Positions 14,032-41,736 of a DNA stretch of 64,000 bases are shown piece by piece. The stretch is taken from assembly GCA_029067355.1 (NCBI GenBank), contig JAIEEQ010000012.1:1-64000 (forward strand). The letters run 5' to 3'. The translations under genes were made by a program, and so were the position numbers. Each line of letters begins with the position of its first letter. Within the stretch, counting starts at the first letter, position 1. Under the pieces are notes generated by a model. That model saw nothing but the letters and a program-made list of their open reading frames with translations, searched no databases and was not told the origin of the DNA. This DNA comes from Anaeroplasmataceae bacterium (lineage in GTDB: Bacteria; Bacillota_I; Bacilli_A; Acholeplasmatales; Anaeroplasmataceae).

Positions 14032-17001
14032 TTACTCGTTTTTCATATATTTAAACTTCGTAGCATAATCTACTGGTTTATAATCTGAATTAATAGAAAG
14101 ACGATTTGTAGTCATCACATCTGCAATGACTTTATTAATTCTCTTTACAGAAAGCTGAGATCTAACCATCGTATAATATGGTGTCCTTGCGTGAGCCTTC
14201 TTTGCAGAAACATCCTTATGAGGGAATTGCTTTTCTGGATAAGAAGTAGGATCAGCCGCCAAGAAAACCTTCATTTTCTTCTTTGTCATAGAAAGCTTAG
14301 CAATTTGCTTTCTACCAATATAGAAGCAATCATAGGAATTTGTCAAACGATTTGAAACACCTTTGTATTTCATAAATTCATTTTTCAAAATATTAAACAG
14401 CTGCTTGATTTCAGGAGAAGCGTTCTTCATTTTTTCTGCAAAGGTACGCTTTGTATTTTGCTTATAATACTTTAGACCATTAATGACCTCATAGTAGCCA
14501 ACCTGCAATTCCTCCTTAGCATGCTGATTCCAATCATCATCATACTTATCACGATAAGAATCTATAATTGCTTCTAACTCCTCTAAGGATAGCTTAGGCT
14601 TTTCTAGCTCTATATCATCGTCTTCATCATCATCGTCTTCATCGTCATCATCTGAATCACTGCGAGAAAGACTAGATAAATCAAGATTCAAATTACGATC
14701 AGCCTCTTCTTGTTCTCTTAGCTGTTCCGCCTCATCAATTTCAGTTTCATCTGGCTCTTCTGTCTTATTCTTTAAATCTAGCAATAAGGCTTCTAATTCT
14801 TCTCTTTCCTTACGCTCTTGTGCAAGCATATCTCGAATGTCCTTAAATTGCTCAGCTGTACGCTCAGCTGTTATACGAGCCTGTTCATTCTGAGTTTTAG
14901 AAAGCTTTTCAATTAATTCATCAATATTAATGGTTGAATGATGAATTGGCTGTTGATTTTTATTTCTAAGTTCATCAATTTGACGTTGCAAAATTTCATG
15001 CTCACGATCACGGTCAGACACAGCAACCAAACGATCCTGTACATAGTATCTGTCTCTTGCTTCATAATATCTATCCCGATCTCGATCACGTCGATCATTT
15101 CTTAGGCTGTCAATTTCACGATGTAGTCGATAGATTTCATCATCACGATAATTATTTTGTGGCTGTTGTGGAGCAGGCTGTTGTTGCTGATTTTGAGATA
15201 ATCTTAATTTTTCTATCTCTAATCTCAAAGCATCAAGCTCCGCAGAATTATTATTCTTTGGTTCATCCTTTGGCTGATTCTTTAAGCGCTCCATTTCAGC
15301 CTGCATACGCTTGAGCTCTTCTTCATGAGCAAGTCTCTTCTGTTCTTCCATAGACATTTCAAAGCGATGACGCATTTCATCCATTTGACGACGCATCTCT
15401 TCAAGCTCTTTGTCGTTGTTTGCAGGAGCAGGAGCTGAACCATTGCCTAGCCCAGAAATATTGATTGAGGTTGAGCCTCCACCACCATTAGAACCACCCT
15501 GAACCGTTGCTTCAATACCATCCTTACCTTGAATACGAATCTTACTATTTTCTTCATCAATTTCAATATCTGGATAGTCAAATTCATAAATTTTATCTAG
15601 GAAAGGCAAGAATTCACTATAAGGAACTGGCATAGTAAAATAGTTTCCTTGCAATATAATTCTTCTACTTACTGTTGCTAAAAAATCAATAATCTGCTTT
15701 GTTTCAATACCTTCTACAACAACTGTATTACTTACCTTTGTCAATAAGGAAACAACCTTTTTAACCACATGCTTTTCCTTATCCGTAGCAAGATTATGGG
15801 CAAAGAATTGACGATCCACCTTCATTGTATCAAAACGATTGTTTGTCAATAAGGATAACGCTGAGCTCTCTGCTCCAAAGTTATCCAAAGCAACCTTAAA
15901 GCCTGCCTGCTTTAATTTTTGAATTGCATGATCAAAATAATCAACACTCCCTACAAATTGTGCTTCTAATACATCAATTTCAATGTTATTTGGATAAACA
16001 CCATAGCTTTTGGCAATTTCAATCATCCGATCAATATAGTTAAGATTATTCAATGTCAATCTTGAAAAGTTAGATGCAATTGTAACGTTCTTATGACCAG
16101 AATTCTCGCAGGCCTGAGATAATTCACAAGCCTTTTCAAACATGAGCATATCTACATTCTTAATAAATCCTGTGTGCTCAAGTACAGGAATAAAATCATC
16201 TGGATAATATAGGATTTGCTGTTCTGAATTCACCCAACGAACTAATAATTCTCCACCAACAACATGACCTGTTGTAAAATCAACCTTTGGTATAACATAA
16301 GGAACAAATTGATTGCCCTCTAATGCAGCTTCTTTATTTGCATTAATTTCCTCTAAAAGTTCTACTTTTGCTCTTACTTCATCACTAAAATAGAAGATAT
16401 TATCATCCTTAATTGTAGCGTAAGGAAGGGTAGCCATAGCAAGCTCTACATCACGCCTTGGATAGTCAAGTGGAGCATCCTGGTATACAGCAGCAGTTAA
16501 AAAGAAAGAATATAATCCATAATCTTCAATTTGTAAAGAGTTCAATTTTTCATTTAAAGTAAGGACAAAATTTTTAATTTCTGTACGATCACGATTGACC
16601 ATAACAATTAAAAATTTATTAAAATCTAACCTCGTAACAAATTCCTTTTTTTGTAGCTCATATCTGATTTCCTGAACAATAGCACGCATCAAAATAGAAC
16701 GATCCTGATACTCTTCATAAAGTGTTCTTAGGTTATCAATTTGAATGACCACAAGAGATTGAGGATTATCACGAGAAGCTTTTTTAATTTTCTTACGTCT
16801 TTTCTTTAAAATAATATTGGTACCCTGAGAGTTATGAATACCACTCTCAGGATCAACCAATTGGCTTAAATTCAATTGTAAAATATAATTTTTTCTAAAG
16901 GCGACAACCGCAATAATCAGTACAATAATTAATCCTACACAAAGTAGAATAATTCCTGTAACATCAAAGCGCCCGATAGAAAATAGTTTCTTATCTAGCA
17001 T
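14032..17001 (-). CDS. Membrane-anchored degenerate GGDEF-EAL protein with coiled coil, acidic tract and uncharacterised C-terminal domain
   Basis: N-terminal TM; GGDEF position reads RLDFNKF; EAL region GGELLVRW, ASNFSRL, IEIDVLE, LDNFGAESSAL, DTMKVDRQF, VVVEGIET, LQGNYFTMPVP; SDDDDEDDDDEDDD tract. Confidence 0.88.
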   Translation of the reverse strand: MLDKKLFSIGRFDVTGIILLCVGLIIVLIIAVVAFRKNYILQLNLSQLVDPESGIHNSQGTNIILKKRRKKIKKASRDNPQSLVVIQIDNLRTLYEEYQDRSILMRAIVQEIRYELQKKEFVTRLDFNKFLIVMVNRDRTEIKNFVLTLNEKLNSLQIEDYGLYSFFLTAAVYQDAPLDYPRRDVELAMATLPYATIKDDNIFYFSDEVRAKVELLEEINANKEAALEGNQFVPYVIPKVDFTTGHVVGGELLVRWVNSEQQILYYPDDFIPVLEHTGFIKNVDMLMFEKACELSQACENSGHKNVTIASNFSRLTLNNLNYIDRMIEIAKSYGVYPNNIEIDVLEAQFVGSVDYFDHAIQKLKQAGFKVALDNFGAESSALSLLTNNRFDTMKVDRQFFAHNLATDKEKHVVKKVVSLLTKVSNTVVVEGIETKQIIDFLATVSRRIILQGNYFTMPVPYSEFLPFLDKIYEFDYPDIEIDEENSKIRIQGKDGIEATVQGGSNGGGGSTSINISGLGNGSAPAPANNDKELEEMRRQMDEMRHRFEMSMEEQKRLAHEEELKRMQAEMERLKNQPKDEPKNNNSAELDALRLEIEKLRLSQNQQQQPAPQQPQNNYRDDEIYRLHREIDSLRNDRRDRDRDRYYEARDRYYVQDRLVAVSDRDREHEILQRQIDELRNKNQQPIHHSTINIDELIEKLSKTQNEQARITAERTAEQFKDIRDMLAQERKEREELEALLLDLKNKTEEPDETEIDEAEQLREQEEADRNLNLDLSSLSRSDSDDDDEDDDDEDDDIELEKPKLSLEELEAIIDSYRDKYDDDWNQHAKEELQVGYYEVINGLKYYKQNTKRTFAEKMKNASPEIKQLFNILKNEFMKYKGVSNRLTNSYDCFYIGRKQIAKLSMTKKKMKVFLAADPTSYPEKQFPHKDVSAKKAHARTPYYTMVRSQLSVKRINKVIADVMTTNRLSINSDYKPVDYATKFKYMKNE

Positions 17002-17015
17002 CTTCTATCCCCGCC

Positions 17016-20000
17016 TTACTTTGAATTTTTCTTTTCTTCTTTTTTGTTTTTCTTCTCGTTTTTATTATTTGCCTTCTTAGCAACTCTTCCAAATTTATCC
17101 TTATTTACACAAATTAAGATTAAAATTAAGATAATCAATAAGATGATAATTAACAATAATAATGGCCATAAATCCTTCCACTGGATTCCATCCTTAGGAT
17201 TACCCGTAGATTCAACAATGAATTTAACAATTTCTGTTTCCTCACCATCAAAAATCGTAACGATAACCTCATCAGGATTTTCAAGAACATCAGAAATTAC
17301 ATTAACCTCTAAATTTTCTGTTTCAGGGAAAATAAATTTCGCAAAATCAACATCAACAGATTTCGCACTGCCAATATTTACATTGTAAACATTCTCTTCT
17401 CCTTCTTTTAAAGCTAAGCTATAATCTGGATAAATGTCATTTTTAACTTCGTATGCCATCTTATCACGATTGACCTTAACCACATAAGTCTTTGTTGTAA
17501 TTCCATCTGGAGCCGTAATAATGACAACTAAAGCATTTTCCCCAGAATGTAGCTTTGTACCATAATACTCAACACTTGACTTACCAGAGCTTCTAGCAGG
17601 GGTAAAGATTGGCGTTAATTCTGTAATATCATTTGTTACATGATACTCATATAATGTATTTAATGGATCAAAATCTAATTCAAATTGTGGAATCTCTAAA
17701 ATTTTTGCGGTTGCAGCATCTGCATTTGCATCATCAGATGAATATCTTCTGATGATAACCTTATATTCAGCCATGGAACTTCCTGTTGGATTAGATACTC
17801 TAACAATGAATTCATTTTCTCCAACAAGTAAATTCTTAACTCCAATACCTGTGACAATATCATTCTCATTTTCAGGAGTTGCAAAAATTTCTGCCTGCTC
17901 CTTAATAAATGGAACATTTACACGATATTCTTTCTTTTCTGGATCAAATTCTACTTCGATTTCTTTGGTTGGATCGTTTTCTAATAATGGATATCCTAAT
18001 ACACCTAAAGTAGATAATCTAGGATCCTTATATGCACGATTCACAGTAATCTGATATGCATAAGTTGATCCATCCTGAGCAGTTACTAATACTGTAATAG
18101 TATTTGGACCCTCATTTAAAACATAATTACTTAAATCAAGCTCATGAACAAGCGTCGTTGGAGCTGATCCATCCTGATGATTCACTGTAATTTTTGCAGA
18201 CGCATCAGTAGTTTGAACAAACAGTGGAATATTTGTTGTTTCATAAGGAACAGATAATGTATAGTTTGGTCCTTGTGTAACGTCAAGATTTTCACTATTC
18301 ACAATTAATTTATCTAGGGTAACTATGTTAGAAGGCTTTTCAAAGGATACATTTACAATATATGGATTTCCTGTTGTATTGTTTGCTGCTACACCCATAA
18401 TTGTATATACCTTAGAAGGTTGTGAAGCATTCCAATAGGTATCATCAATTGGACCTTCAAAATGATTGAATTCTGTTACACCATTGATGCTTACCTTAGC
18501 CTTAGAGCCAGGTAAAGTTTCTGTGAATAAGGTATAATTGGTTACACCAGCAGGAATTGTTACATTATAGGTATCCGTCGTTGGATCAAAGGTCATATAA
18601 TTTTTCTGACCCTTATCATCCTGAATATAAATATTTGTAATCGTTGTGTCCTTATTTGGATCAATATCGCCACGAGCTAATTCTACTGTATAAGTTTCAT
18701 GAGTTGTACCATCTTCTGCTGTTGTTGTAATGGTAATAACAAAGGAATATGCACCAGCACCCTGTGTAATTAATCCAACAACCTGATTCTGATTTGTTGA
18801 ATCAGAAGGGGTAACATCACTACTACCACCTGCTCTACCAACGGTTGTTGTAGATTTTGTAGGAACAGCTACAATAGAAATTGAAGAAGCATCTCCAATA
18901 TTTCCAATGGTGTAGGTAGCAGAATGAGATCCTGGAACAAAGCCCACAATCTTATTTACATTTCCAATACGAACTTCAAACTGCTTTAATGTTGCATCAT
19001 TGTCCTTTGCCTTGCGTTCAACAATAATGGTATATTCTTGAGAAGCATTTGCAGTAACCATTTGTTTCAAGTTTTCAGGAATAACAGAATGATCTAATAC
19101 ATATTGTAACTCACTAATTGCTTTAATTACATAGGTATTATCTCCTTCTGCTAAAGAAAGAACTTGATGAGTTTCATTTCTTTGGGCATTGCTATACTCA
19201 GTAGATCCCACCATTGCTGTTGCATAAGTACCTTCCTTTTGCATACGAATTTGTAAAGAAGATACATCACCATTTACAGTAAATTTAGGTGGATTTGTTG
19301 TTGCCTGGTTGAAGGTAAAGGTATTTCCATCAACATCTTGAAGAGCAACTCCTGTTGCAGCCAATAAATTAATATTGGTAAGATCTCCTAAATTTTCAGC
19401 ACAAACAATCCAGAAAACATAAGTATTCGTTAATCCTGCCGCACCTTCTGATTTAACAGAAATTGTATGACGGTTAACACCTGCATGTAATCCGAAATTA
19501 ATGATAGAAGGCTGATCTCCACCAGAGGCAATACCTGAGGTAGTTACAGTAGCATCATCAGAATAGGTTAGATTAGAAAATTGTAATGCCTGTTGTGTAC
19601 GAGGTAAAACAATAATATATTCATTAATAATCTTGTTAAATGAAATAGGATTATTTGGTATATCAACAGATTCAATATAATTATCCGTATTTGCACTTGC
19701 CTTCTTAATCTTTACAGTATATTCCGTAGAGGAATGCTGTGGACCAAGTGGGCTAGCACTTTGCAAAACTTTAACTGTAATTGTTGTTTCACTTCCTGGA
19801 GTAGATACATTCTGTGTATAAGAATTTCCAGAAATTGGATTTGCAGTACTTCCATTAATTTGAACATTTACATTAGATGGATTCGTTGCAGCAAGTGTAT
19901 AGGTCAAATCCACACTCGTTGTACTATATGGAACAGTAACCTCATAGGATGGTGTCGTTGGATTAAAGGAAGGCGTCATCGTTTGAGGAGTTCCTGAAAT

Positions 20001-23000
20001 TTCAACCTTTAAGTCAGATAATAACGTAGAATCATTCACCCAAATACCTACGGTATAAATTGCCACTTGTGCATTTGAATCCTCAGGAGTAACTGTAATA
20101 GCAACATTATTTAAACCTGCACTTACGGGTACATTCCATGTTCCGTCTGGATTCTTAGTCGCACCAACAACATTTACCGTAGCCTTATTAGACTTTGGTA
20201 TAACGTTCATAGTAACAGATGAAGGAATTGGTGTTCCACCAACTGTTGTAGAGGTACTAGCTCCTGGTGCAGGAACCGTTACTGGATTTGAATTTACCGT
20301 AATTGAGGTTATTCCGTTTTCTGTATCCTTTGCAACCTTACTTATATTAATTACATAAGATTTTGCATTTGCTTGATTCTGATCTTCTGCTAAAACAGTA
20401 ATATTTACTGTTGTACTACCAGAAGGAAGGTTATTAATATTTAAAAGCTTTTGTCCAATAACACTATTTAAAACAGAGCCATCAGGTAAAGTAGCCTGAA
20501 TGGTTACAATTGCCTTTGAATCATGTGGAACAACAGTAATTGTTGTACCTGTTGTTGTACCATCATAACTAATTGCATATACAGGTGGATTTTGATTTAC
20601 ATTTAAGTTTGCTTCTGTTCCACCACCCGCAGGAGTAACCGTTATAGAATCTACACTTGAATCAGAAGATTTTGGATCTTCAGGTTTTGCTGAAATTGTT
20701 AGAATATAATCTGTATATTTTGTAGTATCACCAGCAGCATAGGCTTGAGATTCTACTCGAACCGTATAGGTTAAGCTAGTTGTTGTTGATAAGCCTGAAA
20801 GATTAAGTGAACCACTTGTACTTTGACCAGTTCCACCAAATAATAGATTTCCTCCTGAATCTAAAACCTTAACAATGGAAGTATTCTTTGCTGCTGTTGC
20901 AGAAATTGTTAATGTTGTAGTGGTTGTAGGAAGATTTGAAACAGAAATAGGCAAATTTGAAGGGTGGAAAACAAGACTACCACCAGTTGGCATAGCTGGA
21001 ACATTAAATGTGCTTAATTTACTATCATCATCTGGACCCTCACGTTGAATATTTACAGTATAGGTTTGAGTGGTTTGATCTTCTGCTGTAACAACAATAG
21101 AGATTGTAAACTGCTTTGCAGTGTGATCATTTGGAGATTCCAAAATTACGGACTGCTGAGCACCACTCGCAAGATTATTGTTTGAGCTTTCACCACCAGC
21201 TCCTCCTGCAACAGTGTATGACCAACGAGAAGTTGATTTTGCCAAATTAACAGTTAAATTAACCGTACTAATATCATAAGGAAGCTTTGTTGTACAATTC
21301 ATCGTTGTACCACTGAGAGCACCTGTTATATTAATATTTCCATTCTTTGTATAAGTAACAACTATACCATTATTTGTAGCAACATTTTTATTGGAATCTG
21401 CTGCCTGTCTTGTAACTGAAATTGTTTTTGTTGTTACCTTTCCTGTTGTTGAATCTGTTATAGTCACAGTAGCCGTTTCTGTTTGAGTCGTAGTCGTATT
21501 TGAAAACGTCAAGGTTTGAGGGCTAACTGAAGCTGTACTACCCGTTTTAGGTGTTATATTAATTAACACTGTATTATTTGGTGTACCATTTGTACTATAA
21601 GGAATTGTAAATGTCCATGTATTTCCAGTACCAAGCTGACTTTCTGTTCTAGTTAGAAGTGTTGTACCATTGCTTGATAAAGCTACACTAGTAACCGTTT
21701 CAATATCTGTAACTTGTTCACAAGTATATGTATATGTTTTCGTTGCAGCTGTTGGATCCTCAGGCTTAACAACTATAACAATTTGAGCATTGTTAGAAAC
21801 ATTTACTCGTGTAGAAGCACCAGAGGTAATTGCAGTACCATTTACAGTAACTGTCATACCCTTTGATGTATCTACGGTAGGAGTAACATTGATTTGAGTT
21901 GTTGTTGAAGTAATCTTAATCTTATCTGACGTACTGTTAACATTCGCATTTGCAGAGTTAGCAGCTATAAAGATAGGACTAAAAGAAACTCCACTTGTTG
22001 CCTGAGAAATAGACAAGCTAGTTAAAGCAGCATCCGTGTATGGCTTTATCTTAACACTAATCGTATAATTTTTTGTTGTAGTTCCATCCTGAGCAGTTGC
22101 AACAAATGAACCTGTTAAGGTTGTATTTCTGCTACTAAAATTTACTGTAAAGGATGATCCACTTACACCCATACCACTGCTACTAGCAGACAAACTAGAT
22201 GCGCTACCCTTTCCACCATCAACACTTAAGCTTAAAGTATAAGATGTGTTAACAGAAAAAGCTGTTGGCTCTAATTCAATACTAATTGTTCCTGTTGAAC
22301 CTGATTCAGTACCTGCCTTAGATACAGAACCAATGGTAGCCGTAGTTAACGTACTACCAGATGGTGCCCCAGCACCAAAGGACATATTCCACCCAGAAAC
22401 ACTATTTAAGGCTAATTGACGTCCACCAGTATCAGTTCCTTGAATATTTAGAGTAACATTTGACATCGAAAAAGAAGATGTGCTTGAGTTAGTTGTAACC
22501 TTCAGTTTTCCAAGTAACCACTTTCCTGCCGGAATTTCTGGGTTTGTACCTGTTGCCATATTAAGAGAAAGCAGATTAGAGGATGTATAAGAAAATGAAT
22601 TATTACCCTCATTGTAAGTTACATATTGTGCACCATTATCTACTTTACCATTTCGAGTGAAATCACGATAGCTGATTGGTAAATCATCCTCATGATCATA
22701 GATGTACGCATCCATTTCATCTCCATCTGCTGAAACAAATTCAATAGATTGAACATTGACACTACTATCTAATCTCCACGAAAATGTAAATGCCTTAACT
22801 CCAGAAGATACATTCATATATACAGATACATAAAAATATCCATTTGTTGCATCTGTTATACTATCTAATCTTGAATCATTAGACCATATTTCATCAGAAT
22901 ATACTACTTCTACTGAAGTAGAGAAATCTGAGTGAGTAAAGTTTTCAGCACCATTGGTGACGGCAATCGTTGTGCCTTGATTTCCTTCACTTTCGTTATG

Positions 23001-23099
23001 CTTAGGAACAGTATTATCTGCAAGGAAGAAAATCCCAACAGATAATACTAATAATAATCCCGTGAAGATAAATCCCAGTTTTGTTATTATTTTTTTCAT
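17016..23099 (-). CDS. 2027-aa membrane-anchored surface protein: signal peptide, cohesin-like N-terminal domain, cadherin-like beta-sandwich repeats, C-terminal TM and Lys-rich tail
   Basis: Signal MKKIITKLGFIFTGLLLVLSVGIFFLA; many repeats of type LSDLKVEISG..MTPSFNPTTPSYEVTVPYSTTSVDLTY; TM WPLLLLIIILLIILILILICV; tail KKANNKNEKKNKKEEKKNSK. Confidence 0.88.
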   Translation of the reverse strand: MKKIITKLGFIFTGLLLVLSVGIFFLADNTVPKHNESEGNQGTTIAVTNGAENFTHSDFSTSVEVVYSDEIWSNDSRLDSITDATNGYFYVSVYMNVSSGVKAFTFSWRLDSSVNVQSIEFVSADGDEMDAYIYDHEDDLPISYRDFTRNGKVDNGAQYVTYNEGNNSFSYTSSNLLSLNMATGTNPEIPAGKWLLGKLKVTTNSSTSSFSMSNVTLNIQGTDTGGRQLALNSVSGWNMSFGAGAPSGSTLTTATIGSVSKAGTESGSTGTISIELEPTAFSVNTSYTLSLSVDGGKGSASSLSASSSGMGVSGSSFTVNFSSRNTTLTGSFVATAQDGTTTKNYTISVKIKPYTDAALTSLSISQATSGVSFSPIFIAANSANANVNSTSDKIKITSTTTQINVTPTVDTSKGMTVTVNGTAITSGASTRVNVSNNAQIVIVVKPEDPTAATKTYTYTCEQVTDIETVTSVALSSNGTTLLTRTESQLGTGNTWTFTIPYSTNGTPNNTVLINITPKTGSTASVSPQTLTFSNTTTTQTETATVTITDSTTGKVTTKTISVTRQAADSNKNVATNNGIVVTYTKNGNINITGALSGTTMNCTTKLPYDISTVNLTVNLAKSTSRWSYTVAGGAGGESSNNNLASGAQQSVILESPNDHTAKQFTISIVVTAEDQTTQTYTVNIQREGPDDDSKLSTFNVPAMPTGGSLVFHPSNLPISVSNLPTTTTTLTISATAAKNTSIVKVLDSGGNLLFGGTGQSTSGSLNLSGLSTTTSLTYTVRVESQAYAAGDTTKYTDYILTISAKPEDPKSSDSSVDSITVTPAGGGTEANLNVNQNPPVYAISYDGTTTGTTITVVPHDSKAIVTIQATLPDGSVLNSVIGQKLLNINNLPSGSTTVNITVLAEDQNQANAKSYVINISKVAKDTENGITSITVNSNPVTVPAPGASTSTTVGGTPIPSSVTMNVIPKSNKATVNVVGATKNPDGTWNVPVSAGLNNVAITVTPEDSNAQVAIYTVGIWVNDSTLLSDLKVEISGTPQTMTPSFNPTTPSYEVTVPYSTTSVDLTYTLAATNPSNVNVQINGSTANPISGNSYTQNVSTPGSETTITVKVLQSASPLGPQHSSTEYTVKIKKASANTDNYIESVDIPNNPISFNKIINEYIIVLPRTQQALQFSNLTYSDDATVTTSGIASGGDQPSIINFGLHAGVNRHTISVKSEGAAGLTNTYVFWIVCAENLGDLTNINLLAATGVALQDVDGNTFTFNQATTNPPKFTVNGDVSSLQIRMQKEGTYATAMVGSTEYSNAQRNETHQVLSLAEGDNTYVIKAISELQYVLDHSVIPENLKQMVTANASQEYTIIVERKAKDNDATLKQFEVRIGNVNKIVGFVPGSHSATYTIGNIGDASSISIVAVPTKSTTTVGRAGGSSDVTPSDSTNQNQVVGLITQGAGAYSFVITITTTAEDGTTHETYTVELARGDIDPNKDTTITNIYIQDDKGQKNYMTFDPTTDTYNVTIPAGVTNYTLFTETLPGSKAKVSINGVTEFNHFEGPIDDTYWNASQPSKVYTIMGVAANNTTGNPYIVNVSFEKPSNIVTLDKLIVNSENLDVTQGPNYTLSVPYETTNIPLFVQTTDASAKITVNHQDGSAPTTLVHELDLSNYVLNEGPNTITVLVTAQDGSTYAYQITVNRAYKDPRLSTLGVLGYPLLENDPTKEIEVEFDPEKKEYRVNVPFIKEQAEIFATPENENDIVTGIGVKNLLVGENEFIVRVSNPTGSSMAEYKVIIRRYSSDDANADAATAKILEIPQFELDFDPLNTLYEYHVTNDITELTPIFTPARSSGKSSVEYYGTKLHSGENALVVIITAPDGITTKTYVVKVNRDKMAYEVKNDIYPDYSLALKEGEENVYNVNIGSAKSVDVDFAKFIFPETENLEVNVISDVLENPDEVIVTIFDGEETEIVKFIVESTGNPKDGIQWKDLWPLLLLIIILLIILILILICVNKDKFGRVAKKANNKNEKKNKKEEKKNSK
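22370..22950 (-). other. Cohesin-like domain in the 2027-aa protein
   Basis: GYFYVSVYMNVSSGVKAFTFSWRLDSSVNVQSIEFVSADG ... GKWLLGKLKVTTNSSTSSFSMSNVTLNIQGTDTGGRQLAL resembles the strand pattern of cohesin modules; no HMM run. Confidence 0.5.
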
Positions 23100-23132: not shown

Positions 23133-26100
23133 TTAATTCCCGGTTTGCTGCGTTGTTTGTTTAAATGCAGCATTGATATCGTAAAGCTGAACATCAGCAG
23201 CAGACATAATTAGTACGTCTACATCAAAAATAGTCTGTACAGGTTGTGCACTTCCTGTTTTTTCTGCCAATAAGCCTGCTTGATATTGTACTGTAAAAAT
23301 AATAGGATCGTCATTATCAATATACTCAGGTACATTTGGTAAATCAATTAACATTTCATTAACATCAAAAATATCTATTGCACCATCGCAATTGATATCA
23401 CCATGTAATACAACATCAATAGCGTCTAATTCATTATCATTTGTATGAGATTGGCCAGATTTAAATAATGCAATATGCATACCTGTTGCGATTGGCGTGT
23501 TATATAATTCAACACCTGTTTCTAGGTCAAAGACCACCTGTAACGTCTTTGTATTTGTACCTGTACCATCATCTAAATAAGCCCATATCTTAAGCTCATC
23601 CTTCTTATGATCAAGCTGTTCTAAAACAAATCCTAATTGGCCTTCTCTATACCCATCAACACCTATACCTGGCGTATTTTCATCTTCAGGTCTTATATAT
23701 TGATGTGTATGACCAAGTCGAATCTTGTTTGTGACAATGTTAAGTTCTGTTTGATCCACACACGCATCTAATACTTCATCTCTGGTTTTAGGCTGTCCAA
23801 AGGAGGTATTCTCAACACCATCAAGAATATCCATCGTCAATGTTTGAATCTCAGTACCAAGATTTGGATCAATAGCATGAAGATCCTGTTGGTAATAAAC
23901 AAATTTATATTTACTACCCGCTCTAATTTTAAGACGCTGAGATTGTGAATTAATGATAGAGAACGTTCCTGCATGCTTTGTATTATCCATTGTCGTATCA
24001 TCGCCAAATCGGAAAGAATACTTTCTACCATCAATGCTCTTAATGGTAAATGATGCTAGTTGAGAAGGATCATCCTCAGGTGTTACGCCTGTATTTCTAT
24101 ACCATTCAATCTTATAATCGACATCTTCAATCAGTATTTCATCATCACTTTGATCTACTGTACCTTGAGTAACTCTTACTGTTAATGGGAATGTAACTGG
24201 TACTCCATTCCAGTATTGTGTGTGATCATAAGGATCAATTATAATATCCTGCACATCCGTACCATTTGGCTCAGGATATGGATCGTGTGTTGTATGATCT
24301 GGATCTAATTCTGTTGCTTCAATTTTGATATCAATTGGCTTATCAGCAACATCATCGTTTGTATCCCAACGAGTATTAATCTTATCAAGCAATTGTGCAT
24401 GAATTGTAAAGGTAGGTGTGTGATTAATATTCGTAGTAATCAATGTTTTGCCTTGATCATCCTTTGGAAGAACGAACTTAAAGTTTGGCGTTGTTGTTGA
24501 TGACAATACTATACCATCAACTTCTAATATTTCTCCCGATTCCAAATCAACAGTATATACTACTGTTTTATCTGGTTTTGTAAAGAAATGCTTAATTGCG
24601 GTTATGTAGAGCTTTCCATCCTTAACTAATGCTTTTGCATCATAGTCAGCCTGATTGTTCCGAGGATCTCCTTGTGGAGATGGGAACGTAATACCTGCAT
24701 AATCTGGATCTGCCTCATCTCCTCCAGTTGGATCACTTCCATCTGGAGTACCTGCAATTTGTCCAACAATCTTAAATGGTTGGAATTCATCTGTGAAATT
24801 ATAGTTACGAATATACTCCTGATATTTAGGATGTGTTGGATCTAGCTCCGCTTTCACATAATAATATCCGCATGTGAAATTAGAAGGGGTTATTGGATTT
24901 CCTTGTGCATCTGTATAGATAACATTTGCAGGAATTTGATGGTCAAATACGTCAATGAAATATGCAGAAGGTTTAACTGGTGTATTTTCTCCTTTGTAGA
25001 TCATTGTCATTGTAGGAACACCATTTTCCAAGGTTACCAAGGAGTCATATTCCCAACGATAAGGCTCAGTATGCTTTGTAATACGGAAATGATATTCTCC
25101 ACTTCTTGCAGCATCTGATGTTGGACCAGCTCCTACATTAGCAATAAAGTAGTAATGTCCTACCTCTACTGGTGGATCTACAAGCTCACGATCTGGTTGT
25201 CCGTCAATAACCTCATAGAATGTATAGGTAACAAGACGATCTGGATCAACAGAAAGCTCATAGAAAATCTTATCTATTGGGTATGGCTGTCCGTCATATT
25301 CCTTATAGCCTGTACCATTTCCAGGGAAATCTGTAATTTGAATTACAGTTTCTCTTGGAGTAAGCTCTACTGTTGCATGACCATTATGAGTATCATAGTT
25401 TGGTCCTTCAATTCGGAAATAAATTGTGGTCAAACCAGCATTTATAACATCAATACGAGTTTGATCAAATGGACCATTCTCAGATAAAGAGTATTTAATT
25501 AAAGACTCTAGGTTGTTTTGATCAATATCTTGAATCTTTGGAACTTCCCTCCAAACAATAGAGATATGGTGTGGATTTCCATCCCAAGGCACTTTTACGC
25601 TTATTGCATCAACCTTAAATGTCAGTTTAGAAATCCTTGCATCAACGCTAATATGTAATTCATAGTTTTCTCTTACATCTAAGTCTCCATCAAAAATACT
25701 ATATTCATCTAGCCATTCAAATTGAGAGGATATATTATATAATCCAGCCATAGAGGCAATGGTTTGAATAGTACCATTAAATACATGTCCATCAACTAAT
25801 CCAGAATTTGGATCATTTGTAATTGGAAGTACTTCTCCATCCATAGAACGAATGGTTTCCTGCCAACGTAATCCATCATAATCCTTTTGTCCATTCTTAT
25901 AAACAATCGCAATAGGACGCTTCTTAATTTCAAAGAAGATTTCAAGAGGTCCATTTTCTGTATTAAAGCCAGCTGTTGCGTCAGTACCCTCGTAATTGGT
26001 AGTATCTGCCATACTGATAATTAAACGATACTTACCTGCATTGACAATGTTGGCATCGCCAATTGGCTCATAGGTTCCTCCGCCTGCTCCGTCCTCGACA

Positions 26101-29100
26101 TATAGGAAATAATTGTATTGTAAAGCTGCATCACGATTTTCATCTGGATTTTGCTTGTTGTAATTAACAATCGGATTCTTAATCGCTATACCATCATATA
26201 CCTTACCTAAGGATACATTATCCCCATTCAAGATTGTCTTCTTCTTGTAGATAATGACTGCAAAGCGTTCATCCTTTTCAGCCACAGCATTTGCACCAAG
26301 AATAACCTCTCCATGAATTTGAGAACGTACCTTAATTTGTACATAGTGTGGAATACTTGAAGCATCACTCCATTGTGGCAAATCACTTTGCCATGTACTT
26401 CCACCATCCATACTATATAAGACGCTTGTTACATCTCCTTCTGGAGCAATTGGCTCAAATTTAACATGATGGTCTTTTCCATCATATTCACCCTTAAAGC
26501 CTTCAATATTATAGGTGAACTGACCTGTACTAACACTTTGGTTAATCTCTACATAAATATCATAATTACTTAATTGATCTGCAGTGGTTGTTCCCTTGAA
26601 CATAAACTTAGGATCTGCGGATGGACCACTAAATTTGTACATCGTTGTAAACGCACTATCTGTATATTTTCCATTAATCTTATCTGTTCCAGCAGTAACA
26701 GATTGACGAATTAAAATTCCATCAAATTCTACTGGATCTGGAAGATTATCCACAGTTGCAGTAGTAAACTGAATTACAGATGCACCAGCAGGTGCTTCCA
26801 TATTACCACCAAGCTTAACTGTAACCTTACGCTTATTGATTGTAAAGTTTGTTGCTACTGAGCTTACAGAAGAATCCTTTGAGAAGGTATAGTAATCTAA
26901 GCCTTCATTTTGGAATGCAAATTGAACACGATACTCTCCAACATTCGTTGGCTTGCCTGGTAGCTGTGCTCCAGTAGACACATCGTAGTAGGTTACCTCA
27001 AACTGATTTGCAGCAGATGCATGTGCCAACAAGCCCATAACATTAACCTCTGGATAATCATCAGCTCTTAATTCATAGTCTGGTGCTTGTGGAATTGCTG
27101 CATATTCAAACTCCTTCTTAGACCATGTCAAGGACACAACCAATGGAGTTATATCAAATTCAAGCCAATTACCTATACCATTATAATTAGCTGTTGGATT
27201 AATAGCAATAGATACCTTATAATGGCCTACCTCAATTGGCTTAGAAGATAGAGTTACCCATCCACCACTCACTTCCTTCTCCCATACGATTGTATTAATC
27301 AATGGGTCGCTCATAGTAGCACGCATACTAGAAATATTTGCCGTTGAAATTAATGGATCCTCAATTGGATTACCATTATACTGTCTTGTTAAATCCGCAA
27401 TTTCCAAGGTATTCGTTTTCTTAACAATTTCAAATTGCTTGCATTGTGGTTCTAAATCATTATAGTTTGGAACATTTAATGCTCGATAGTAAATATAGTA
27501 TGTACCAACATCCTGATATCTTGGAAGCTCCTTAGACCATGTTCCATCTAATCCAGTCTTTGAATATTCAACATAGGCATTACCATTTGCAGGTAACGTA
27601 ACATCAATATATGGAGAATAATAATCATTTTCTCCTGAACCAATATATTCATATTGATCTTCTATATATTCGGTATACTGAATAGTACCCTTTTTAATTC
27701 TTAAATCAAACTCAATAGAATAAATGTAGTTACTACGAACATTATTTCCATTTGCATCTAAAATACGATAATTTGTTCCATCTCCAGAATTAATTGTCAA
27801 TTGGCTACCTGAAATTGTATAATCTCCAACATTTGAGCCACTGGTTTCAATAACACCAACAGAAATGTAGTGTCCAGTCAATAAACCACTTGTTCCACTT
27901 TGGGTTTCAATAATGTAGTTATCAGGATTCTTGGCAATATCATAGGACCAGATATTGCTGTTGTAGCCAACCTCAATCCATGGGTCATAGTTATGAGCAT
28001 AAATCTTATACTCTCTTGGTGAAATTCTAAATGGTCGTTCAATTTCTGTTGGACCATAAATTGTTCCAGCTGGAATAGTTAACCGATACCAGTATCTACC
28101 CGCATCAACAACAGATTCTAGGGCATCTCCCACACGGTCACCCGTTGTTTCATGAGCTAAGAAATATTCAATTTTCCAAGAGGAAACTGCTGGAAGAATT
28201 TCTCCACCTACAATATCAGTTTGATTCCATTGGAAATGACATAGCAAATCTGAAGAAGGACTTAATACACTAGAATCATAAGGAATTCCATCATAGGTCT
28301 TTCCTAAATCGTATTGTGGATCAATCGTTATTGTATCCTTATCTCTTTGGCGATAATTGATTGTAATTGAGGTTCTACCTTCCCAATCCTCGTATTCTGG
28401 AGCAGTTATCTTAATATAATAGTTGTAAACACCTGGTTCTGTTACTAGATATTGTGTAACATCCGTGTTATAAGTACCAGGACCTTCTCCGTCTCTACGA
28501 TAATAGGTCGTAGAATCAGCTTCACTTGGATCATGATAAGTGATATTTGCATATGGACTTCTTTGAATAGTCGTATCATAATCATAAGTCATATTTGAAA
28601 CCAAGTCATGATTCATATACTTATAATGAACAACCAAGGTAAAATCAAGAATAATATTATAGTTTTCCGTTTTCAATTCATCATCTGATGGATCTCCATT
28701 TTGATCATCATACTTAAATAACCATTTGCAATCAAAATCATAGCTTCCTTCAGAAACACCATTTAATGTTCTTTCTGCTGTAAAAGTGAAATCTGAATTA
28801 TAAGCAGAGGAGCCTCTAAATTTATAGGTACCACGCTCTAAGTGTTGCAATGAATTCATTCGGAACACAAAGTAATCAGAAACAACTAAACCAGGAATTG
28901 GAATATAGTAATCACTATTGGTCTGGTTAAAGGAATTCATAATCGTGAAATCGTATCCTTCAGATCCAGCTTGAACACCTCCATTTACATTCTTATAGGA
29001 GGTTGAATTTACAGCCTTACTTACCCAAATTAGATTTTGATCATTTAAATCCGCATCAGTTACTTCCCAGTTCGCATTAATCATAAGGGTAACCTTTCTT

Positions 29101-32100
29101 GGATAAATTTCAAAATCATAAGATGCATTTAGACGTCCATAATTCTTGACAACTGTTGGATCATCATCCACAGCAGAGGTTACTCTAACGGTGTATAAGC
29201 CAACGGTTATAGGAGCTGGAATTTCTGTTGTTGAATTTCTTTGATAATATTTAATAACCAAGTCATTTGATGTACCATTATATCTTCCAGATGCTAAATT
29301 GCTCTTTACCTCTGCTTCTGATGGGGCAAGACCATTATATTCACGATCTAATCCAGTATCTGCAAAGTATAGCTGAGGATCAGCAAGCTTAATTGTTACA
29401 TCTACCATTCCTGTCTTTTGAGAAACTGTTTCAACACTATCTGGGTCACCTAAGGTAACCTGATAGAATACACGATATCGACCCACACTATTAAATACCT
29501 TATAGATTTGGCCATCGTTCTCATAGTCAGGAATCATATAGTTATCTCCTGGATAGCTATATTTATAATCAATTGTATAATTAACTCCTGGAACCTTACT
29601 TGTAAAGTAATCTCCATTCTCATCTACCATAACCACGTCATAACGAATATAATATCCGTTCATATGTGAGGTTACATTAATAATTGGTCCATGAACTGTA
29701 CGATCATATTCATAGGTTGCATCCGTAGCCTCAATAATCAACTCATTGCTGGTTAGATATAAAGAGTAATTTAGATTAAAGTGAATAGAATCAGAATAGT
29801 CATCTCCTACCGCATCTGTAATCTTTTGTGTTAGAACAAAGTCATTAGCTCTATAAAAGAAACCTGCCTGATTAACTCTTGTTCTTACTTCTAGCTCTAA
29901 ATCTACCGCACTATGAATCCATTCATCACCAAAGTCCTCTTTTGTATAGTCCTTATGCCAATAGGTCAACAAATATGGCTCTGTTAAACGCTCATAAATT
30001 GTATACTCCTTTGGAAGGATTTTAAATACGTCATTTGGATAATTCAAAATATAGTTTAATGGATTTATAATGGTTCCATCTAAGGTAGCAGAAACATAAT
30101 AGCTACCTGCAGCTGCTGCATAAGCAACAGTGGCTCCTGTTTGTGCAGAAATCATAGAAGCATTAATTGGCTGTTCATTTCCATAAACATCAATGATGTA
30201 TGGATGAATATCCTCACGCATTGTGTAACGGATTGCCTTTCCATCCTCATCAACATCAAATTCTTCTTCTAAAGACTTCCACAATACCTGTGCTTGCTTT
30301 GGTACAACCTTGACATACGCATGCTTATACTTTCTGTTTTCATAGTCTCCACCTAAAATAGTAGAGCCATTTAGGGTATCTGTCGTATAATCTGTACCTG
30401 AAGCACCACCATTCCATGCATAGAAATTTCTACCATCAGAAATCGTGATAAAGACTAGATAATAGCCATCCTCTAGCACACCATTAACAGAGAATTGAGA
30501 AACATCCTTTTGATGCTCAAACACTTGATTGCCATAGAAATAGTTAGAGGTATCTGTAATATCAGAGATACTATCCTTAACTTTATAGTAATAGTAAATC
30601 AGCTTACCATCAGAAGGGGTAAGGATTTCAGGTATAGCATCCTCACCATTATATTCCATTTCTGTATCTAACACCTCAAAGGAGGTCAATTGAATACGCC
30701 GTATAATGATTTGAACCTGATAAATTAAATTGCCCCTTTCATCCTCTATTGGATTTACAGCTGGATAATAATTGTATGCAACATTTCCATCTGCTCCTGC
30801 AATATATGCACTTGCGAATTCAAAATCCCCGTCAAATTGATATGGATCCTCATAGCCTGGATTATTTGCCTCTCCACGACAATCAGGAGAATTAGGAGAT
30901 AGTAGGAAGGTTGGAATATCAGTTCTAACCATACTATGTCCTGGAAGAAGACCAGCATTTGGTCCGTTATTTAAAGAATTAAAGCTTTCGTCATATACAA
31001 ATCCACCCATAGAAATCTTTGGTTTTTGTCCTGTATAGTCAAACTCTATGATCAATGGTGCTGGAACTCCTGTATAATCAAAGTATAAAGGACGTTTCTT
31101 TAGCGTTACCTCTGCACTTCTAAAGGATGTGTACCAGTTATTGGATTCAGGGAAATATGCATAAGCAATAAAGGTACCTGCATTTACTCTTGGCTTTGAT
31201 GTTTTTGGATCATTATATAAGGAATAAATTCTTGAGGTTGTAGGCATACCCTCTCTAAAGAAACGATCTAACTGCTCATGCGTTACACGTAAAGCCTTCA
31301 ATTCCTCTACATCAAAATAGAAGAATCGAGGAGTAATCGTCGTAGGCATATGGAAATTAGGGTCTGTAAAGGTATAGCCTATATTGTGCTCTTTTCCATC
31401 ATAAACTACATCAAATGGATCAATAGAGAAATCTAAATTAACCTTATTGATTGTTAGAGTTGCTTCTCCTTCTGCTGGCTTGAATAAGCCATCATCCGTA
31501 GAAATCTTATAGTGTACCTTATACACACCTACGTTAATCTCTAGGAATTGATTAAAGGTATTCTTATTTTCATCATCCACATAGTAGAATTCTGTCAAAA
31601 TCGTTTGAACTCCTGAGGATATTATATCAATATCAACAGTTTTTGGATTTCCGTCATATGCATATTCTGCATCATGAACCTCTACCTCAAGTGGTGGATA
31701 CTCAATAGAAACCTTAACCTCAAAGATAATTTCATAGTAATCTGCAAAGCTCAGATTTCCTTGCTCATCTTGATGAGTAATATAAATATTTCTTGCTAAA
31801 ACGTTAGCATAATAAATTCCTGCTGGTGGAACTAAAGTATCATATAGCTCATAATTTCCACTTGCTGAATCTACACGATATACATCATAATTATAGTAGG
31901 TATCTACATATCCAGCCTCAGTTTCTAATTCTAGCTGAATAGAATCAGTTGCCAGTAATCCTGTAATATAGGAATTATCCCAGTCAGAATTCTTAATCCA
32001 GTTCGTCATTGGAACTGTTGCCTGATATACCTCATCAATTTTAATGATGAGTTTACGAGGAACAATCTTAAAGTCTAAGATTTTATCCTTCTCTCTTAGT

Positions 32101-35100
32101 CTATAATTTGGATCTTCAATACGGAAGAATACATCCATCTCATAATCCCCAATTTCAATTGGTTGTACTCCACCTCTTACATTCTTTCCTAGAAGGACTG
32201 TGTCAGTAGTATGCGTATCAACAACCAAATCTGGAGTTTGAATTTGTCCATTGTACTGAAGCTCTTTATCATAAGTAATATCAATAAATCTAGGAACAAT
32301 TGTAAAGTAGGTATATGCTGATTTTGCAGCACAGTTCGTTGTTGCAGGATATTCTACTCTTACATAGTAGGATCCTAAAGCCGTAGGAGCAGCAATCGGA
32401 TTGCTTAGATTGTTTCTATTATACCATTTAATGGTAGGAACACCATCATGAACCGTAGTAAACTCCAAATCCTCTAAAGTAACTGGACGTGCTAAATACT
32501 CAATTTCCATATCTGAGGTTGGGAATTCCATCAGTGGATCATCGTTAAATAGAATTTCCACAGTACCATCTAGTTGTCTAGGATTACAGTTATCTGCCAT
32601 TACATACAAGAAGACCTGTTTATAACAAACATTCTTATACTTAAGCATCTTAAGATTACTATTTATAACAACATTCGGATTTTCATGATATCGTACATCT
32701 AAAATCTCATATGGAATGTTTTCTAGTTCATTTTCTGGAGTGGAAGGATCATCCTTACCAAAATAATAACGATAGGTAATCGTTCCGTTTTCCTTTAATT
32801 CGTTGGTTACAACAAGAGTATGATTTGGATCAAGTGCCTTTAATAATACAGTATGATACTCATTATCAAAAACAGCTCTATAATTTTCAACAGTCAAACT
32901 CAAGGTACGATTCTTAATAAAAATTTCCACTTCCTGCTCATAGTAAGCAAAATTTCTTAACAAAATACGCACTGTAACCTTTGTAGCACTTGGCATTGCA
33001 TTTCTATAAATAGAAAGATATCTTGTGCCATCCTCAGCAATTGTTAAGGATGCTGTGGTCCATGTAGGGTTTGCAACATTCATACCACCCTCATGGTAGG
33101 TAATCAGTAGATTTTCTCCTTCAGCACCTGCTTCTTGAACAGCACCAGACAGATTTATAATTGGACCATGATACAAGCCATCATAGAATCCTTCATAGCC
33201 CGTAACATAGACATTATGTGGATCTCCTGTATTTTCAATTACCATGGTTACAATTATATAGGTAGGATTGTAGTTTGGATGTTCTAGACGCACTGCATAT
33301 TGATAGGTTCCTATGTTAATAACCTGAGGACAATTTGAAGAATAAGATAATTTACTATAATCCTCTGGAGTTAAGTTGTTTTCAGTACCATCTAATAGGC
33401 AATAGCCAACAGAAGCTGTAACTGGATCCGTAGGAGTAACCACAATACCATGAGAGAAACCATCATAAGCGTGTTGTTCTCCATCAACTCTATAATGAAT
33501 ATCTCGTCCTTCAATTATAATAACAGCTGAGTTCATTACCGTTTGATAATGAGGTGCTTCTATTTTGAAATAAATTGTATACGTGCCTGGAGCAGAATAT
33601 TGTGGCGGATACGCTTTCCAATCTCTTCCATCCACAGGGATTGAAGACTCACTATAATATACAGTGGCCCCAAAGACTGGTTCTGTTACAGTTACATCAA
33701 CCGTATGATATAGTCCGTCATAAATGAAGGTTTGAGTTTCATTAAAACCATATTTTATTACCAATGGTAAAATTTCATAGCTTCCACGGTATACAATACG
33801 ATAATTGCTTGTCTGATTTTGTTTAGGAAGACTTGTATTCGTTACCGTCCAAGGCTGTGCACTTGCAAGAATAAAGTCTCCATTTACATCTCCATTATAA
33901 ACGCCAATTTCGGCAGAACGAGACATAAAGAAGCCGTTAAACACATCGCCATCTAATAGATTTAATGCGGTATGCGTTTGATTTGTTGCATTCTCATAGT
34001 TTGCCTTCCAAGGAAGACCATCATAATGTTTAGAATCAAATGGCTCAGTCTGGTCAATAACATCAATATAAATGCTACGCTTAGTAATAGAGAAATCACC
34101 TAAAGAAATATTCAATTCATCTCTTGGCCATTCTAGCAAATCATTAAAGAATTCACTATGATTAATTTCTGTTGTAGCTGTGAACTTATATTCACCAACC
34201 TCTATTGGAGCAGAAATTTCATTATTATATAGCCAATCATTTCTATTATAGAACTTAAAGGAAATCTTAGATGGATCAAAGTCCTTAGGAAGTCTTAAAA
34301 TCTTAGAAAGAGGCTCTGCTTCTTCTCTGTCATACTCCTTACTGATATCTCCAAAGAAATAATTTCCCTTAACTGGGGTTACAGTAACAGTCTTTGTTAC
34401 TGTATAATATCGCGCTTTAGAAATAGTCAAGGTATAAACATATTGCATCTTTTCAAAGTCAGTTACTGTGAAATAAGAAATTGCTCCATTTCCAGTACCA
34501 TCATCAAATTGGCCTAAAGTTGTTGGTGTAGTATCTGTCGCATTCTTGATTTTAACACTAAAATCATGCATATAACCATCAACACCAAAGGTCATTTCAA
34601 TGGCACTTTGAGAAGAATTATAATGATGAATACCAAAGGCTTCATTGACATAATTTTTAGATTCAGACGGAATGGCTAATGTATATACACCATTTAAGGT
34701 AGATAAGCCATCTGTATTAGCTAAATTTTCATAGGTAACCGTAAAGTCATACTCAAATTCATTGTAAATAATTCTTACAACTGCATCTAAGCATTCTGCT
34801 AAATCATAGTATTCCGTCATTTCTACTGGTTCACCTGAAGTGGTTTTAAGAGTACTTGAGAAGATTTTCAAATCGTGTACAATCTTTTTACCATCAGCAT
34901 ATTCTTTGCTACGATATGTACCTTCCTCCCAGTCCTCGCCATTTTCATTAACCGAATAGAACGTTCCTGAAATATAATCCGTTGGAGCAAGCTTCGTCAC
35001 TTGTAGTGTCGACTGACCAGTAACCTTGCCTTGTTCCACCTTTCCCGTAGTGAAATTATAGGTAAAGTTTTGTCCAAATTCATCAATTGTAAATTGTGTA

Positions 35101-38100
35101 CAATTATACACTATTTTCAGCTTCGCTTTGACGACAATAAACTGAATATAGTTATACCGGTTAACAGAAATTCCTAAATCTATATAGAAGTTTCTGGTGT
35201 CATAGCTTTTAATTGTAGAGGTATGAACCGCATTTGTTGGATAAATAACTCTCTCTGGAGCAACCTCAGTACGAATACTTGCATTAATTTTTTTATCTGT
35301 TTTACGATCAATGACCATAGGGGTAGGTGTAATATAGCCACCATTATATTCATACTCATATAACCCTGTTGTTTCATTATAATATCCACCCCAATCTAAA
35401 TCATCTGGCGTAGATACTACACGTTTTGCAATTAATAGTGCATAGTTAATTACAACCTCAAAGTTTCCAGTAACATTGGCACCCTTATAGGTAATTTTAG
35501 GTGCAGTTGTCCACTGGAAGCCATTGATGCTTCCCACTTGAGCAGAGGCAATACTTCCAGCTCCACTCAAAGATGGATAGGTATTAGAATAATAATTAGC
35601 TGCAAAAGTATCAGGATATGAAACCATCTCTGCATAATCTTCTGAAAGAAGCGTATCTCCATATGCATTGTTATATGCCATATAGTAGCCTGAATCTGCA
35701 GATACTGTGGAAAGTGTTCCTGTAAATACATAGTCATTTGGAATACCAAATACATTACCACCTGCAGACCAACGACTATTTTCCCAACGCTCTCCTGTAT
35801 ATTCCTGAGTAACAATTGTTAAATTATTTAATAATGCCGTATTTGGGTTATAGAATAGTGGCTTCTTTTGCCCCGTCATCACCAAGAATTTTACATGGTC
35901 TAGATATGAATATCCATCAGATTGGGTCGTACCACCATATAAATCAGAATGCTGACCTGATTGATAGAATAAATCAATACGACGCTTTGTAATACTGAAA
36001 TTGATTTCAGTTTCCCCAAGCAATCTAGAGTTATTTGAGCGAATCTTAATCTGTCCGTTTCCTACATTCACATTATTAAAATAAGTAAGATAGAAAGAAG
36101 CTAAATCTAAAGTTCCATCATAGTCATAGAACATAAAGTACAGCTGGTCATTTGCAGTATCCTCACCCTCTAAACGGAAATCCTCTTTATTTGTTGAATA
36201 CTTTACAAAACGATCATCTACATCAATCGCAATGATTTTAGGCTTTATTTCTTCTCCAAGCTGATATTGGAAGGAAGAGGAGTCTAAGGTAAAGGTTAAC
36301 GCATTAATCTTAAAGACAGGCGTCATAGTATTAACTGTACTTCCGTTTGCTGTAATTGTTTTAAACTGCCATACATCCTTATAGTACACTATACCATTAT
36401 TAATATAGGTTACCTCATCATCATAGCATAAGCCATTTAATTCATTAGTTCGATTTGCATGGATTGTACCTGTACAATCACATACTGTTCCCGTAGCAGC
36501 CATAGCTTCTGCGGCTGTCTTTTGAGAGAATACGGTTCTATATACCGTAGTATCATCCATAGTTTCTACTTCACTATAATTATTAAAGGTTAAGCATTCA
36601 TTTCCTAAGGACACAAAGTTAGCACCTAAAATTAAAGTATCTACTGCAAATAAAGGGTGTACCTTGTGTGTAGTTGCTGTTCCATCAATGAAAGCATCAA
36701 CGTAATACTTTTCAGCTGAGAAACAGCTATCAGTTAAACCATATACAATTAAACCATCATGTGTATTAGGGAACTTTAAAGTACCATTTAATAATAGGTT
36801 CCCATTTGGAGCAAAATCCACCTCTTCATTAAAGCCTGTAATCAAATACCCCTTTAATGTAGGACAATATTCATAGGTAAATAAATTCTCGCTTTGATCA
36901 CCAATAATATATACTGGGAAATAGCAGTTCCAGTTTGTCCCCCATGTTACTGGCCAATCATCTTCTGCATGATATACTTCTAAATAGAACTTATCTTCAT
37001 TACAGCCATAGAATACACCATTCACATAATCATCAAACACTGGAGTTTGATTAAAATCAGATCCGGCTGGAATAATTGAGCAATCACGTGGAATTCTTAA
37101 AGAATCCAAATTAGAACAATTTTGGAAAGCTCCACCCGCAATCGTCTTTAAATTTTCTGGCAAAGCTAAGGTTTTCATGGTTCTACACCCTCTGAAGGCA
37201 TTAGCACCAATACGTTCAATATGAGATGCATTTGCTGTTAAGCCTAATCCTGTTCCAGGAACAGAGTTATCTCCTAGCTTAGAACATCCATCAAATAAAC
37301 CATTTGGAATAACTGTACTTACCGCAGGATCTAAATCAATGGTTTCTAGGCTGGTACAATTTTGGAACATATATTCTGAAACATAATCTCTACCATTTGC
37401 ACCAGTAGTTGTATGTTTTAAAATAACATCTGTTAAATTAGTACATCCAGCAAACAAGTGTGTACCAACATAATCAAAATTAGTAGCTCCTGTTGTATTG
37501 GTTGTAGCATAGGTTGTTGCTTGACCATACATATCAACTTGGGTCAGCTGTAAACAATTTGCAAAAGCATAATCACCCAAATAACGATATCTAGAAAAAT
37601 CAATAACACTAATAGAGGTACCCTCTAAAGCATGATGTCCAATTCTCGTTACTGTCAATGGAGAAAACGCATCAATAACGGATAGAGAAACACAGTTTAA
37701 GAATGCACCATCTCCCATTGCTGTATAACTTGCCTTTTCAAAGGTAACTGTATCTAGGTTATAACAATTTGCGAAAGCATAGGCACCCATATAGGTAACA
37801 TTAGCTGCACGCTCTCCTGCATTAATTACCTGTTCTAAGGAGGTCATATTTCTAAATGCACCATCAGCAATACGAGTAAAGTAACGATCTAAGGTGATGG
37901 TTGTTAATCCCTTTGGAATATAGAATCCTGTCGTATTTCCTCCCGTAGATTGATATGCCAAATATGAATTACCATAAGAGGCAGTACCAAACAGCCAGCC
38001 AATTGTAAAGGATGCACTAGAGGATTGATTTCTGTTATAGGTAGCACCAATAAATGGTATGTCAATTTCTTCTATATTGCTACAACCATTCATAATACCA

Positions 38101-40625: not shown

Positions 40626-40703
40626 AGACAACCCTCCTTTACTTTTATAAAGTAAATTTGATATTTTTTGCATTATTAAAAAAGTATATAATAATACGTT
40701 TAC

Positions 40704-41094: not shown

Positions 41095-41736
41095 CTATAA
41101 GAGGAATAATCTGTGCATACGAACGACTATTATTCCATTGTAAATCCCTATAAACTCTTTTATAATTTTAGTAGGTATGACAAAACTCATTCCAGATATA
41201 TAGGTTCCATTATCTCTTATCCGAAAAGTCATAATACCTAATAATTCTCCTCTTGTGCTATATAACGGGCCTCCTGAGGAACCATCATATATTTCAATAT
41301 TTGTTGGAATTGAAAATATACTTTCTTCTTTATAGATTACATTTTTATAATCGCTTGATATTATCCCCTTAGATAAGGCTAGTCCATAGCCTTTAGGATT
41401 TCCTAACGTATAAACCTCTTTTCCAATTGTAAATTCTTCACTAAGCTTACTAAAACAATCTGTCTGCTTATCAATTTTAAGCAAACACAAATCATACATC
41501 TTTGATATAGAGATGATTTCAGCATTATATACCTCTTCATTTATAAAACTCACCTTGATAGATGAGTTTTCAGTAAAATCATTTACCACATGTTTATTTG
41601 TTAAAATTAAGCCATTCAAGGATATCAGTGTCCCTGTTGCTGAACTTGTCAATCCTTCATTTTCACATCTAATTTCTACTGTTTTATTGATTGCATCATT
41701 GTAAATGTCAAAGCTTGAACAGGAACATAAAATCAA
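41095..41736 (-). CDS. Trypsin/HtrA-like serine protease; C-terminus probably frameshifted (see findings)
   Basis: Triad context TNKHVV, YDLCLLKI, YDGSSGGPL; GTLISLNGLILTNKHVV. Track start is a non-ATG codon; N-terminus uncertain (LILCSCSS resembles a lipobox). Confidence 0.82.
   Translation of the reverse strand: MILCSCSSFDIYNDAINKTVEIRCENEGLTSSATGTLISLNGLILTNKHVVNDFTENSSIKVSFINEEVYNAEIISISKMYDLCLLKIDKQTDCFSKLSEEFTIGKEVYTLGNPKGYGLALSKGIISSDYKNVIYKEESIFSIPTNIEIYDGSSGGPLYSTRGELLGIMTFRIRDNGTYISGMSFVIPTKIIKEFIGIYNGIIVVRMHRLFLL

Follow-up and report, generated by a model that had tools for sequence, protein, structure and literature searches.

The window analyzed here is a 64,000 nucleotide stretch (positions 1 to 64,000) of contig JAIEEQ010000012.1 from an Anaeroplasmataceae bacterium, and all window features given below lie on the minus strand. 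At 14032..17001 it carries a gene for a 989 aa protein, here called the EAL protein, with an ATG start and no stops within the frame. A transmembrane (TM) helix was located by hydropathy at residues 17–35 (16897..16953). It is followed by a GGDEF-like domain (residues about 50–205; 16387..16854) and an EAL domain (residues 225–458; 15628..16329). The EAL domain was assigned by Pfam (PF00563) with 143.1 bits against a curated cut-off of 31.3 (146.5 bits in a second search). The GGDEF part scores 15.5 bits, under the cut-off of 23.8, and is a remote match alone. Nevertheless, alignments with GGDEF-EAL models and with solved GGDEF-EAL proteins span both domains, the best PDB match being 2r6o (E 9e-26). 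No HAMP domain was found in the protein by Pfam. The EAL domain is followed by a coiled-coil-like charged region recognized from sequence and alignment (residues about 535–740; 14782..15399), an acidic stretch in which half of the residues are Asp or Glu (residues 740–800), and a C-terminal domain, CTD (residues 797–989; 14035..14613). The CTD is the best-conserved part of the protein and has no significant match in PDB or Pfam; its single-sequence AlphaFold model is of low confidence (mean pLDDT 36).

Next to this gene, at 17016..23099, lies the gene for a 2027 aa scaffold protein with an N-terminal hydrophobic signal, cadherin-like repeats and a C-terminal TM helix. The helix and a conserved cytoplasmic tail (...ICVNKDKFG..KK), identified in an alignment of 13 scaffolds, are encoded at 17019..17162. 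Two genes for giant surface proteins lie upstream. The first encodes 5846 aa (23133..40673) and has homologues at the same operon position in relatives; no dockerin was found in it by Pfam. The second encodes 7306 aa (41831..63751) and has a type I dockerin at its C-terminus, where the Dockerin_1 module (41855..42019) scores 35.9 bits against a cut-off of 22.9. A gene for an HtrA/DegP-like serine protease lies between the two giants (41095-41736); an ORF matching it is absent at that place in genome G005. In three relatives checked, the giants upstream of the scaffold are homologous and in the same order. Homologous giants in relatives carry C-terminal modules that resemble dockerin as judged by eye. 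The N-terminal domain of the scaffold is all-beta in a low-confidence single-sequence AlphaFold model (mean pLDDT 45). A cohesin was suggested there by eye, though neither Pfam nor PDB gave a match. No carbohydrate-active enzymes were identified here.

Full-length members of the EAL protein family were found by profile search in 13/55 genomes of the window's taxonomic family. Seven are in the window's genus, including the window copy, and six are spread across three other genera. None was found in the rest of the 160 genomes of the order, and the sole hit of a related-locus search of genome contigs was an EAL protein from a Nevskiaceae bacterium, unrelated to this family. A single TM helix is present in 13/13 members. 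As a separate observation on the same taxa, FtsW/RodA occurs in 10/11 genomes of the window's genus, and most other genera of the order that were searched lack it, a pattern that would fit patchy cell-wall loss.

In 13/13 genomes a scaffold homologue is immediately followed by the EAL gene, with intergenic gaps of 7–21 nt and one 4-nt overlap. The first-pass annotation had correctly described the two genes as co-oriented neighbors; the gap in the window is 14 nt (17001 to 17016), not 15 nt. A scaffold profile and the full-length EAL protein profile mark the identical 13/55 genomes and no others, where the scaffold profile covers the last 250 residues and was built from these same scaffolds, so that very divergent scaffolds could escape it, and where the 13 paired genomes are not independent, seven coming from one genus. 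The EAL protein and the scaffold are strictly inherited together. The proposed coupling to the surface assembly, for which absence of co-occurrence in relatives had been named as a refuting outcome, is strongly supported by this pairing, since co-occurrence was examined and held in 13/13. Scaffold ectodomains are about 30% identical among members. The scaffold helix and its short cytoplasmic tail are near-invariant, with the pattern I-x-V-N-[KR]-[DE]-K-[YF]-G followed by Lys/Arg.

Three further proteins of the window's genome (G000) also contain the CTD. One, encoded within the window at 2181-3326, is a 381 aa protein with an N-terminal TM helix, an acidic stretch, the CTD and a C-terminal ribosomal L15-like domain (49 bits). 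Another, C46 (L159 3328-4191), is soluble, with the CTD preceding a weak CBM20 (starch-binding) match just under the curated cut-off. The third is one of a pair of proteins at C89 (L158 2971-3969 and 5-2974), and has 332 aa with a TM helix, an acidic stretch and the CTD but no GGDEF-EAL. Its gene overlaps the end of a gene for another TM-anchored surface protein, which has weak MBG-like repeats. Because this pairing of a surface protein with a TM-CTD protein exists without GGDEF-EAL, it suggests that the TM-CTD part may be the core of the partnership, to which GGDEF-EAL was added as a regulatory module.

Motif positions in the GGDEF and EAL domains were read from alignment to solved EAL domains and to relatives. 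The motif letters reported by the first-pass annotation (DFNKF, ELL, DNFG and EIDV, with N, K, VEGIE and QG kept) agree with this alignment. The degenerate GGDEF site of the window copy is DFNKF (residues 126–130; 16612..16626) instead of GG(D/E)EF, and relatives have EFDKF, EFNKF, EFREF, SYNKF or TNSQF. The motif is thus missing in 13/13 members, and by motif the GGDEF-like domain cannot be a cyclase. At the EAL motif position the window copy has ELL (residues 251–253; 16243..16251). Counting ELL as degenerate was mistaken because it contains the metal ligand E251, and EIL is what members of the family normally have at this place.

The window copy retains E251, N311, D373, K394, D396, E430 and Q451 of the EAL domain. 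In the ExxE motif (EIDVLE) the second Glu, E346, is retained and the first, a metal ligand, is D343 (15973..15975). The DD pair is D373-N374, within DNFG (residues 373–376; 15874..15885). The complete EAL set of E, N, E, D, D, K, E and Q is therefore broken at two positions, E343D and D374N, and both changes are private to the window copy. The other 12 members have Glu and DDFG at these sites, and all of their EAL metal and catalytic residues are intact (GEIL or GEAL, N, E, DD, K, E, Q). ExLxR (R255), PxxFIPxxE, D373, K394, E430 and Q451 are invariant in 13/13 members, window copy included. The window copy also retains the residues that form the c-di-GMP pocket of characterized EAL domains. 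The intact set in 12/13 members rules out a catalytically dead family, and the family ancestor was probably a phosphodiesterase. The proposal of a non-catalytic sensor or structural protein is consequently borne out by motif for the window copy and does not extend to the family.

In PA3825 both Asp residues of the catalytic DDFGTG motif are ligands of the two metals, Asp161 being the M2 ligand (PMC5301497). Position 374 of the window copy aligns with Asp161, and position 343 aligns with an M1 ligand position. Since the DDFGTG pair ligates two metals, E343D and D374N hit different metal sites. The text of PMC5301497 gives an M1 ligand as Asp130, which was considered as a natural precedent for E343D and rejected, as the PDB sequence counts Glu there. 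Glu to Asp and Asp to Asn are conservative changes, and the window copy might retain some phosphodiesterase activity. The seven retained residues, the complete site in the rest of the family and an EAL score still at 143–146 bits would all suit a protein that remains a c-di-GMP phosphodiesterase at the scaffold, fully or weakly active, and tolerates both substitutions. We consider this improbable, as one ligand is changed at the M1 position and one at M2, and these changes coincide with acceleration of the whole EAL domain. Since two metal ligands are changed and the pocket residues are kept, the most likely present role of the window copy would be that of a non-catalytic receptor or structural partner.

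Divergence of the window copy was expressed as its distance to two congeneric clades divided by the distance between those clades. The relative distance is 2.9 for EAL, 2.7 for GGDEF and 1.1 for the CTD, giving an EAL-to-CTD ratio of 2.6 (99% bootstrap interval 1.6–4.2). Identity to the closest congeners is 76% in the CTD versus 37% in EAL. The window copy has altered 14/59 EAL columns that are invariant in the other 12 members versus 0/19 such CTD columns. In a member-by-member control, other lineages show 2 to 11 such EAL changes. One possible meaning of the raised GGDEF-EAL divergence is that no ligand function is left in this half of the protein.

The excess falls at residues about 480–560 and returns in the coiled-coil middle (2.1–2.6). 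The membrane-proximal region of the scaffold in the window also shows raised divergence, with a ratio of about 2–3. The window EAL domain branches outside all other members, whereas the window CTD groups with congeners. An unrelated EAL domain swapped into the protein is unsupported, as the window EAL domain groups with the family at a support of 0.999. This pattern could have arisen through relaxation in place or through recombination that involved one contiguous block. In the second case the window copy would be a recombinant, in which a divergent block of scaffold terminus and GGDEF-EAL was joined to a resident coil and CTD, rather than a product of in-place acceleration. The divergent scaffold region, the drop at about 480–560 and the conflicting positions of EAL and CTD are what such an origin would leave. 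Because the coiled-coil middle is again divergent, no clean recombination breakpoint was seen along the EAL protein, and the EAL domain stays within the family with no donor found; recombination therefore seems to us an unlikely origin.

The c-di-GMP proteins of the genus differ between the window's genome and its operon-bearing congeners. In each of the six congeners, no EAL domain but that of the scaffold-linked protein has its full catalytic set. Their other EAL protein, an orthologue of C27 of the window's genome, is without D2 and Q in all six. All six also encode a receiver-HD-GYP-GGDEF protein whose HDxGK, HHExxDGxGYP and GGDEF motifs are intact, and no counterpart turned up in the window's genome, which is 97% complete. 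In that genome the only intact GGDEF is in C62, whose own EAL domain is without the first Asp, and 3/3 EAL domains of the genome are degenerate, leaving no complete EAL. C69 (L178), 606 aa, has an HD-GYP-like C-terminus (HDVGK ... HHLWHDGTGGYP; 36.6 bits). Given the intact GGDEF of C62 and the degeneracy of all three EAL domains, c-di-GMP can probably be made in the window organism, and its breakdown by EAL enzymes looks lost by motif. C69 might still degrade it. PilZ proteins were considered as effectors, and none was found in the genus. Within the window, the sole region scanned, there is no c-di-GMP riboswitch. Both negatives count against a c-di-GMP-responsive role of the EAL protein. The one riboswitch in the window is of the FMN type (671-786, 106.9 bits).

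The failure to find the congeners' receiver-HD-GYP-GGDEF protein in this genome, the preferential conservation of the CTD, and the gene pair at C89, where a CTD protein without GGDEF-EAL neighbors a different TM-anchored surface protein, would all fit a GGDEF-EAL part that is purely a structural remnant. The TM helix, coiled coil and CTD would then form a scaffold-associated platform without nucleotide binding. We regard this as unlikely, though somewhat less so than continued catalysis, because the c-di-GMP pocket residues remain, the reading frame is intact, and a GGDEF protein with an intact motif, C62, persists in the genome.

The reading that we favor, with about even confidence and from sequence comparison, is that of a scaffold-linked, c-di-GMP-responsive EAL protein that was ancestrally a phosphodiesterase and in the window lineage has probably become a non-catalytic receptor or structural partner. 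The EAL protein would be the cytoplasmic partner of the membrane-anchored surface scaffold; gene linkage and tail conservation suggest that the two meet at the inner membrane face. The EAL domain would bind c-di-GMP and ancestrally would also have hydrolyzed it. Its bound or empty state may be relayed through the membrane-proximal helices and the coiled coil to the scaffold, and an internal signal could in this way affect the state of the dockerin-bearing giants at the surface or how they are anchored. In the window lineage, with two metal ligands changed and the pocket residues kept, the protein would act as a non-catalytic receptor or a structural partner. We thus see the EAL protein not just as an inactivated enzyme but as a candidate link between a signal inside the cell and a complex on its surface. 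With the catalytic set in 12/13 members and not in the remaining one, the family also offers a natural comparison for whether hydrolysis or binding is the task of a scaffold-linked EAL domain.

Several known systems share parts of this arrangement. EAL phosphodiesterases such as PA3825, MucR, RocR and the 2r6o/TBD1265 type have the same fold by sequence, with the ligands intact in 12/13 members of our family. Unlike them, the window copy is without the second Asp of DDFG and the M1-site Glu, and all members have a degenerate GGDEF and the unnamed CTD. EAL proteins of the FimX and YkuI type bind c-di-GMP, FimX being an inactive phosphodiesterase. The window copy alone resembles them in that the EAL domain is kept and its catalytic motif altered, and by analogy ligand binding without turnover is likely. 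The architecture and partners differ, and the functional comparison is one of general knowledge. As in type I cohesin-dockerin assemblies, the 7306 aa giant of the operon ends in a Dockerin_1 module, but the scaffold N-terminal domain has no cohesin match in Pfam or PDB. A literature search found no paper tying dockerin assemblies to c-di-GMP in such a way.

The closest parallel is LapD of Pseudomonas, a degenerate GGDEF-EAL membrane protein that acts as a c-di-GMP receptor for a surface adhesin (PMC3032553). LapD is an inside-out receptor that controls LapA. Like LapD, the EAL protein is a membrane protein with a cytoplasmic non-cyclase GGDEF and an EAL domain, and it is genetically tied to a giant surface protein. 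Both GGDEF and EAL are degenerate by motif in the window copy, as in LapD; family-wide this is true only of GGDEF, and the EAL site is intact in 12/13 members. LapD has HAMP and a periplasmic output domain between two TM helices; the EAL protein has one TM helix, at residues 17–35, with a short segment before it. It also carries a long coiled coil and the CTD after EAL, and a scaffold and dockerin proteins seem to stand in place of LapA and LapG; giant surface proteins and the HtrA-like protease gene do lie nearby. Because there is no HAMP or periplasmic output domain and the EAL site is mostly intact in the family, we do not class the EAL protein as LapD, although the logic of the two is alike. 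It is conceivable, though we hold it only tentatively, that this is a LapD-like system built independently in a lineage with small genomes, in which a scaffold-bound EAL domain couples intracellular c-di-GMP to dockerin giants through the scaffold tail, and in which the window lineage has switched from phosphodiesterase to pure receptor with the rest conserved. Control of giant surface proteins by c-di-GMP is known mainly from LapD-type systems, and a TM scaffold joined with an EAL protein that bears an unnamed CTD would achieve such control through a different architecture.
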